Source of the DNA: Actinotalea sp. Marseille-Q4924
GTDB taxonomy: Bacteria > Actinomycetota > Actinomycetes > Actinomycetales > Cellulomonadaceae
Assembly: GCF_916618755.1 (NCBI RefSeq)
Contig: NZ_CAKAKB010000005.1
Span: forward strand, 1-64,000
Direction of reading: 5' to 3'
DNA length: 64,000 nt
Position numbers and translations under genes: made by a program. Below, piece by piece: positions 16,782-37,290 of this stretch; position 1 is the stretch's first letter; every line of letters starts with the position of its first letter. The notes beneath the pieces are model-generated. The model was given only the letters and a program-made list of their open reading frames with translations. It did no database searches and had not been told where the DNA came from.

Positions 16782-18206
16782 ATGGCCTCCACGACCGACG
16801 CCGTGCTGCCCTCCGGCGCCCCCCGTCCGCGCAAGGTGCCCCGCATCGTCGTCCTCGGCGGCGGGTACGTCGGCTTCTACACGGCGCTGCGCCTGCGCCG
16901 ACGGCTCGGTCGGCGCGACGCGGCGATCGTCGTCGTCGACCCCCGGCCCTACATGACCTACCAGCCCTTCCTGCCGGAGGCGGCGGCCGGCTCGCTCGAG
17001 CCGCGGCACGTCGTCGTCGCGCACCGGCGTGAGCTCGACGGCGTCGACAGCCTCACGGCACGCGTCACGCAGATCCGGCACGCCGACCGCACGGTCCGCC
17101 TCCAGCCGGACGAGGGCGAGGCGTACGAGATCACCTACGACCACCTCGTCGTCGCGCTCGGCTCCGTGGCCCGCACGCTCCCCATCCCGGGCCTGGCGGA
17201 GGAGGCGATCGGCTTCAAGCAGGTGGAGGAGGCCATCGCGCTGCGCAACCACGTGCTCAGCAAGATCGACCTGGCCGCCTCCACGTGGGACCCCGACCTG
17301 CGCCGTCGCCTGCTGACGTTCACCTTCGTCGGCGGCGGCTTCGCAGGCATCGAGGCGATCGCCGAGGTCGAGGACATGGCCCGCGACGTCGTCCGGTACT
17401 ACGACTCGCTGTCGATCGACGACCTGCGCTTCGTCATGATCGAGGGTTCCACCCGGATCCTGCCCGAGCTCGGGGAGGAGATGGGCGGGTACGCGCTGGA
17501 GCAGCTGCGCAAGCGGCACATCGAGGTGCACCTGTCCACGTTCCTCAGCTCGTGCGTGGGCGGGCACGTCGTCACGTCGACCGGGCTCGAGCTGGACTCC
17601 GCGACCATCGTGTGGACCGCAGGCGTCCGTGCCAACCCCGTGCTGCAGGACTCCGACCTGCCGCTCGACGCGACGGGCCGGCTCATCGCCCTGCCGACCC
17701 TCCAGGTCGCGCACGAGGACGGCACGGTCGTCGAGGGTGCCTGGACCGCCGGCGACTGCGCCGCCGTCCCGGACCTCGCCAACCCCGGCATGCTCTGCTC
17801 GCCGAGCGCGCAGCACGCCGTGCGTCAGGCGCGGCACCTGGGCGACAACCTGGCGCGGGCGCTGCGCAGCGCGCCCGTCGAGCCCTACAAGCACAAGCAC
17901 GTCGGCACCGTCGCGTCCCTCGGCCTCGGCAAGGGCGTCGCGCAGGTCTACGGCGTCAGGCTGCGCGGCTGGCCCGCCTGGTTCATGCACCGGACTTACC
18001 ACATGGCCCAGATGCCGACGATGAACCGCAAGGTCCGGATCGTGCTCGACTGGACACTCGCGATGTTCTTCCGCCGCGAGATGGTGGCGCTGGGCCGCCT
18101 GCACGACCCGCGCGCCGAGTTCCGCGAGGCCTCGGCGCCGCGGCCGAAGGCGACGCCCCAGCCCGCGGACAAGTCCCGGGGCGCGACGGCACCCGCGACC
18201 GTCTGA
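16782..18206 (+). CDS. ndh: Type II NADH dehydrogenase
   Basis: A monotopic membrane flavoprotein that passes electrons from NADH to menaquinone without pumping protons. The 474-residue product has the FAD-binding Rossmann motif at the N terminus (RIVVLGGGYVGFYTALRL), the NADH-binding motif FTFVGGGFAGIEAIAEVEDM near residue 183, and an FAD-contact region (GDCAAVPDL near residue 325). Its C-terminal amphipathic and hydrophobic part (AWFMHRTYHMAQMPTMNRKVRI, DWTLAMFFRREMVAL) fits membrane attachment. A Rex operator lies directly upstream, so expression should rise when NADH accumulates. Confidence 0.94.
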   Translation: MASTTDAVLPSGAPRPRKVPRIVVLGGGYVGFYTALRLRRRLGRRDAAIVVVDPRPYMTYQPFLPEAAAGSLEPRHVVVAHRRELDGVDSLTARVTQIRHADRTVRLQPDEGEAYEITYDHLVVALGSVARTLPIPGLAEEAIGFKQVEEAIALRNHVLSKIDLAASTWDPDLRRRLLTFTFVGGGFAGIEAIAEVEDMARDVVRYYDSLSIDDLRFVMIEGSTRILPELGEEMGGYALEQLRKRHIEVHLSTFLSSCVGGHVVTSTGLELDSATIVWTAGVRANPVLQDSDLPLDATGRLIALPTLQVAHEDGTVVEGAWTAGDCAAVPDLANPGMLCSPSAQHAVRQARHLGDNLARALRSAPVEPYKHKHVGTVASLGLGKGVAQVYGVRLRGWPAWFMHRTYHMAQMPTMNRKVRIVLDWTLAMFFRREMVALGRLHDPRAEFREASAPRPKATPQPADKSRGATAPATV

Positions 18207-18261: not shown

Positions 18262-18335
18262 GCCCCCGTAGCCCAACCGGCAGAGGCAGCCGGCTTAAAC
18301 CCGGTCCAGTGCGGGTTCGATCCCCGCCGGGGGCA
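18262..18335 (+). tRNA. tRNA with UAA anticodon (Leu, UUA codon) on a class I body
   Basis: A full cloverleaf can be drawn by hand. The acceptor stem is 18262-18268 with 18328-18334. The D arm has a 3-bp stem (GCC/GGC) and a GG pair in its loop. The anticodon stem is GCCGG/CCGGT, with a 7-base loop reading C-U-UAA-A-C. The variable region is only 5 bases (18306-18310). The T arm is GCGGG/CCCGC with loop TTCGATC, and the discriminator is A. CCA is not encoded. Anticodon UAA reads the UUA leucine codon. Bacterial leucine tRNAs normally have a long variable arm (class II), which is missing here, so charging identity is not certain. Confidence 0.88.
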
Positions 18336-18411
18336 CGCCACGCCACGCCCGCCAGACTGTGCGCCACCTCTCGCCGCGCGCGGGAACTCCGGCGGGGCCC
18401 GTCGCGTTCCC

Positions 18412-37257: not shown

Positions 37258-37290
37258 CCTACGCAAGCGTAGGTTACTGGACCGTAGGTT
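37258..37290. promoter_or_regulatory. Candidate operator in the hemolysin III / prenyl synthase divergent promoter
   Basis: CCTACG-CAAG-CGTAGG (37258-37273) is a perfect inverted repeat. Its right part, CGTAGGTT, recurs as a direct repeat at 37283-37290, 15 bases along. The shape resembles TetR-family operators. Confidence 0.5.

Follow-up and report, generated by a model that had tools for sequence, protein, structure and literature searches.

A class I leucine tRNA gene in Actinotalea as a probable reader of UUA in place of the usual long-armed form

The window (the whole stretch of Actinotalea DNA that was analysed, 64,000 nt) contains a single match to the Rfam tRNA model RF00005 at the gathering threshold. 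This match, at positions 18262-18335, covers the full model with a score of 54.8 bits (gathering threshold 29, E = 4.6e-09), and ARAGORN called a tRNA-Leu(taa) at 18262-18336. Both programs confirm the initial annotation, which had described a complete cloverleaf with a UAA anticodon and a variable region of only 5 bases. The gene, its parts and its upstream neighbour are as follows.

16782..18206, forward strand: NADH dehydrogenase-like ORF of 474 aa, the upstream neighbour (named by inspection; context only)
18262..18335, forward strand: class I tRNA-Leu(UAA) gene, 74 nt including the discriminator A73 (from ARAGORN, Rfam, alignment and covariation)
18262..18268, forward strand: 5' strand of the acceptor stem, pairing with 18328-18334
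18271..18287, forward strand: D-arm, with a 3-bp stem (18271-18273 with 18285-18287) and a leucine-type loop (A14, A15, G18, G19, A20a)
18289..18305, forward strand: anticodon arm, loop CTTAAAC
18296..18298, forward strand: anticodon TAA (UAA), reader of UUA, as called by ARAGORN
18306..18310, forward strand: variable region, CCAGT, 5 nt
18311..18327, forward strand: T-arm

The canonical bacterial class II tRNA-Leu, as found in E. coli and in the CAG, UAG and GAG genes of the same genome, shares with this gene the leucine anticodon family, A73, A15-U48 (U48 at 18310 opposite A15 at 18276), G18G19, A20a and a 3-bp D-stem with a leucine-type loop. It differs in the variable region, which is 13-16 nt long in the class II tRNA-Leu of this genome and 5 nt here, and in the core, where the class II sequences sampled have G9 and G12 and the class I sequences A9 and C12C13. 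With 5 nt in place of a long arm (at least 10 nt), the gene was not assigned to class II. The CCA 3' end is not encoded, and a search around the gene gave no promoter-like site, an absence that carries little weight in this phylum.

A homologue of the NADH dehydrogenase-like ORF was present at 24 of 29 tRNA loci in the family and at 7 of 29 in the class. The initial annotation had proposed looking for conservation of the tRNA upstream of Bax inhibitor-1 genes; that link is not a general one, with a homologue at two of the 29 family loci (about 3 kb each).

The Actinotalea genome (G000) has forty-five tRNA genes, all above the Rfam tRNA cut-off, and we read out every one. Its class II tRNA-Leu genes are CAG, UAG and GAG only, and its class I tRNA-Leu genes are UAA and CAA. 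An own-genome sequence search placed the sister tRNA-Leu(CAA) at G000:C3:629424-629497, with 82 per cent identity to tRNA-Leu(UAA); the next closest tRNAs are Leu-UAG (65 per cent) and Met and Arg (both 62 per cent). Overall identity to other tRNAs is thus not decisive for the isotype. The gene in the window is the sole UUA-capable tRNA found in the genome. A normal class II tRNA-Leu(UAA) had been suggested as a thing to look for elsewhere, and neither the forty-five Rfam tRNAs nor the class II exact pattern (0 matches) included a class II reader of UUA or UUG. This absence is relative to Rfam, ARAGORN and exact patterns, all of which could miss a gene with an intron or an unusual D-loop. As no class II UUR reader was found, the class I tRNA-Leu(UAA) would replace, and not supplement, the normal one.

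In coding-like frames totalling 35,147 codons, leucine was encoded by 2 TTA, 33 TTG and 3,372 CTN codons, so that the rarity of UUA remarked on in the initial annotation is real. One of the two TTA codons (at 37274) seems to precede the point where its gene really starts.

We then aligned tRNA-Leu(UAA) with its relatives (31 sequences, 30 distinct) and used 500 shuffles as a control. Standard pairs fill 99.5 per cent of the 600 pair cells, which none of the 500 shuffles match, and 67 pair cells show changes on both sides, a number that again none of the 500 reach. High standard pairing together with these double changes means that the cloverleaf varies by compensation. Two weaker measures are less distinctive: nine of the twenty pairs have a change on both sides (equalled by 13 of 500 shuffles), and 287 of 500 shuffles have at least as many pair types as the alignment. 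Free folding of the tRNA is unexceptional (z = -1.5, with 17 of 200 shuffles folding equally well), and the best free fold departs from the cloverleaf in the D-arm.

A census of eighty-one genomes from the family, made with exact patterns and with anticodons read from the listings, shows that class I and class II UUR forms have been exchanged one for one. Sixty-four genomes carry class I genes for both UAA and CAA and no class II gene; fourteen combine a class I UAA with a class II CAA; and one (G080) has class II genes for both. In 79 of the 81 there is therefore a single UAA tRNA and a single CAA tRNA, each belonging to one class or the other. The other two genomes (G036 and G062, 89 and 81 per cent complete) have one UUR reader each, of class I. 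The UAA gene itself occurs in eighty genomes, as class I in seventy-nine and as class II in G080. Within the order, the most common combination among thirty genomes (including our own) is one class I and one class II pattern match (twenty-five genomes), followed by two class I and no class II (three genomes); G106 has one class I match only and G237 one class II match only. The class II exact pattern behind these order counts, and behind those for the class, misses bldA-type tRNAs.

Genus g9 (G009, G067, G034, G051, G080) contains differing types of class II tRNA-Leu(CAA) inside one genus. Together with the class II genes for both anticodons in G080, these types represent repeated replacement. 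Of the 65 hits to class I tRNA-Leu(CAA) in the family, 52, spread over many genera, share one and the same 42-nt core, while the UAA core varies; the identical CAA core reflects either unusually strong conservation or recent spread.

The gene might instead be a decayed or accessory tRNA-like gene, with a normal tRNA-Leu(UAA) missed by our searches. Selection on a reader of a codon seen twice in 35,147 could conceivably be weak, and cyanobacterial tRNA-Leu(UAA) genes are known to contain group I introns, as noted in the part of PMC4033280 consulted. The compensatory variation described above speaks against this, and a class I UUR match is found in 80 of 81 family genomes and in 233 of 296 genomes of the class. 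In addition, the genome has no class II UUR reader by pattern or among its forty-five Rfam hits, and decay would need hidden class II genes in all sixty-four class I-only family genomes, visible solely in the others. We regard this explanation as exceedingly improbable.

If the gene is a working tRNA, its amino acid has to be established. According to the available portion of PMC9976931, E. coli LeuRS depends on A73, A15-U48, G18G19, A20a and contacts between the D- and T-loops and not on the variable arm, and tRNA-Leu variants that lack the variable arm (and the anticodon arm) remain active. A73, A15-U48, G18G19 and A20a are all present in tRNA-Leu(UAA), and both UUR readers of the genome keep these E. 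coli determinants. Across the alignment, A73 is invariant (31/31), as are A15, G18, G19 and A20a, and U48 is found in at least 90 per cent of the thirty-one sequences. Among the forty-five tRNAs of the genome, eight have both A15-U48 and A73, and twelve have G19 and position 34 spaced 15 nt apart; the three features combined pick out exactly the five tRNA-Leu.

Two other assignments were considered and set aside. A non-leucine class I isotype does not fit a gene with this determinant combination, which is confined to those five tRNAs. Allo-tRNAs come in 8/4 and 9/3 types, named for the lengths of the acceptor and T-stems, and the acceptor stem here has 7 bp and the T-stem 5 bp.

Codon meaning was assessed with LeuRS itself, using an alignment from thirty-one genomes of the class in which TTG and TTA codons were masked and a column was considered conserved at 70 per cent or more. 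TTG fell in conserved columns that are leucine in 107 of 117 cases and TTA in 33 of 35. When every column is counted, leucine made up 72.8 per cent of the residues aligned to TTG and 69.7 per cent of those aligned to TTA; the corresponding share for CTG/CTC is 70.1 per cent. Four genomes of family f28 (G101, G118, G133, G145) have class I UUR matches and zero class II UUR matches, and in their LeuRS the leucine columns account for 35 of 38 TTG and 28 of 29 TTA codons in conserved columns. For G101, G133 and G145 the count of two class I genes and no class II gene comes from patterns only; in G118 we read the full set of forty tRNAs, and its sole UAA and CAA tRNAs are class I. The G118 LeuRS alone has leucine at 7 of 7 TTG and 7 of 8 TTA codons in conserved columns.

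A similar comparison in the Actinotalea genome, with low-complexity filters, drew on thirty-three ORFs (15,346 codons) and, given the rarity of UUG, yielded seven TTG sites and no TTA site. Six of the seven sites are mostly leucine and one is mostly alanine; of the twenty-four residues aligned to them, nineteen are leucine, all nineteen from CTC or CTG codons. UUG and UUA therefore mean leucine in the relatives, and UUG does so at most of the sites tested in Actinotalea.

These results bear on the idea that the tRNA carries a different amino acid, so that UUA (or UUR) would have a changed or ambiguous meaning in this lineage. In its favour are the class I architecture; C2-G71 with A73 is also found in some non-leucine tRNAs of the genome, and one of the seven sites is mostly alanine. 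Set against this, TTG and TTA align with leucine at the same rate as CTG/CTC, also where a genome gives no class II UUR match; among the tRNAs of this genome only the tRNA-Leu combine the leucine determinants; and relatives exchange the gene one for one with a class II tRNA-Leu. We consider a different amino acid very improbable. The initial annotation had listed a differently charged tRNA among its options, which finds no support in the leucine positions of UUG and UUA (also in the LeuRS of genomes with class I but no class II UUR matches) or in the leucine identity set. Its suggestion of an unusual isoacceptor fits, as a leucine isoacceptor without the long arm.

One LeuRS gene was above the cut-off in the Actinotalea genome among the matches listed. 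LeuRS comes in two layouts in the class: some sequences carry an insertion near model position 142, and others have no match at about 569-604, a segment that we take to be the leucine-specific domain. No link between layout and tRNA class was found, as both layouts occur in genomes with class I UUR genes (G000 on the one hand; G101, G118, G133 and G145 on the other).

The class II pattern, which misses bldA-type tRNAs, matched 80 of the 296 genomes of the class. A covariance model built on the family matched 279 of the 296 at E = 1e-11, though this threshold also admits some class II tRNA-Leu, so that the figure cannot be read as the number of class I genes. In a sample of the phylum, 67 of 246 genomes matched, including 17 of 25 in the same class and 50 of 221 outside it; the latter belong to at least ten families (f42, f49, f50, f51, f62, f64, f78, f80, f85, f91). 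Named carriers of a class I tRNA-Leu(UAA) include Nocardia farcinica (NZ_LN868939), Nonomuraea gerenzanensis (NZ_LT559118), Arthrobacter sp. StoSoilB13 (NZ_AP024648) and a plasmid of Mycolicibacterium sp. TY66. On that plasmid the gene is part of a tRNA array (322-1824) with several oddly shaped tRNAs and an HNH endonuclease gene nearby.

Phages carry such genes as well. Corynebacterium phage StAB has a class I tRNA-Leu(CAA), and Myxococcus phage Mx1 has class I UAA and CAA tRNA-Leu genes, at 1001-1074 and 1902-1976. An HNH endonuclease gene lies between the two Mx1 genes, and Mx1 places class I tRNA-Leu outside the Actinomycetota. Short-armed tRNA-Leu(UAA) genes are also present in Acidimicrobiales and in another actinobacterial MAG, with a pattern one base longer after the anticodon than in the window.

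In genus g54, which we infer to be Streptomyces, 29 of 30 genomes have a class II (bldA-type) UAA gene. Seven of the thirty have a class I UUR match, and the two for which the sequence was shown are CAA. A further alternative is a bldA-like switch as in Streptomyces, in which the main role of the tRNA would be to gate translation of a few UUA-containing genes. UUA is nearly absent, yet the UAA gene is kept in 80 of 81 family genomes, and a separate CAA tRNA serves UUG. The gene is, however, no member of the bldA type: bldA, like the form in almost all g54 genomes, is class II, and the two tRNAs have in common that a rare UUA is read as leucine (PMC4255298, from the part available). The same source, in that part, states that the developmental role may not reach beyond Streptomycineae, and no UUA-gated gene was identified here. 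A switch of this kind is unlikely, and the regulatory RNA of the initial annotation has no support.

The preferred reading, a leucine tRNA of class I, raises the matter of origin. C12C13 is found in all seventy-nine distinct class I sequences, A9 in seventy-six of them (one has G9, and two rows were miscut), whereas all thirty-six distinct class II tRNA-Leu sequences have G9 and G12. Since similarity or pattern searches supplied both sets, this contrast is partly one of construction. Since the sampled class I sequences share C12C13 and nearly all A9, unlike class II, a single origin of the class I form through one ancient change in the core is probable, although the comparison is only suggestive. 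In several genera the CAA gene has later switched form. One hypothesis, speculative and on balance rather doubtful, is that the UUR tRNA-Leu of Actinomycetota went through a single ancient change from class II to class I (with loss of the arm and A9/C12 for G9/G12), followed by one-for-one exchange that may have been aided by phages or plasmids, and that the switch was adaptive, for example as an escape from toxins that attack tRNAs or from other factors that hold class II tRNAs by their long arm.

In the consulted portions of several reviews (PMC9976931, PMC7609411, PMC4033280), the long variable arm is taken as a mark of cytosolic tRNA-Leu. Human mitochondrial tRNA-Leu(UUR) also lacks it and has its identity mainly in A73 and A14 (PMC9976931, as far as available), but it is organellar, with the anticodon branch of the transcript partly unfolded, while the tRNA described here is bacterial and GC-rich. 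A short variable loop in an actinobacterial tRNA-Leu is described in the accessible part of PMC6582537, for a mycobacterial tRNA-Leu(TAG); that gene has a different anticodon and is an additional copy, located in a tRNA cluster, that accompanies a normal class II isoacceptor. By title and abstract, we found no description of class I tRNA-Leu(UUR) in actinobacteria in the open-access literature, a scope that takes in few subscription papers. Phage records already label short-armed genes of this kind as tRNA-Leu, and given these labels and that scope, prior notice is possible.

The leucine assignment is supported by the identity determinants, the codon meaning and the exchange of class I for class II genes. 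Judged from these sequence comparisons, the gene very probably encodes a working elongator tRNA that inserts leucine at UUA, and is the UAA member of a class I tRNA-Leu(UUR) pair that replaces the class II pair here. The gene would be expressed, and the cell's own LeuRS would charge its product through A73 and the elbow of the D- and T-loops with A15-U48, with no need of a variable arm. One LeuRS would then accept both arm types within one cell.

Actinobacteria thus seem to depart on a large scale from the usual long-arm rule for leucine tRNAs. In many of the sampled Actinomycetes the UUR tRNA-Leu lacks the long arm; in G000 and G118, the two genomes with fully read tRNA sets, the CUN tRNA-Leu keep it. 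Such mixed arm types would offer a natural within-cell comparison of what LeuRS requires, and tRNA annotation and isotype models would have to allow for them as an exception across the lineage. They may also provide a case in which a single isoacceptor family has exchanged class I and class II forms, an exchange that could be dated on a tree.
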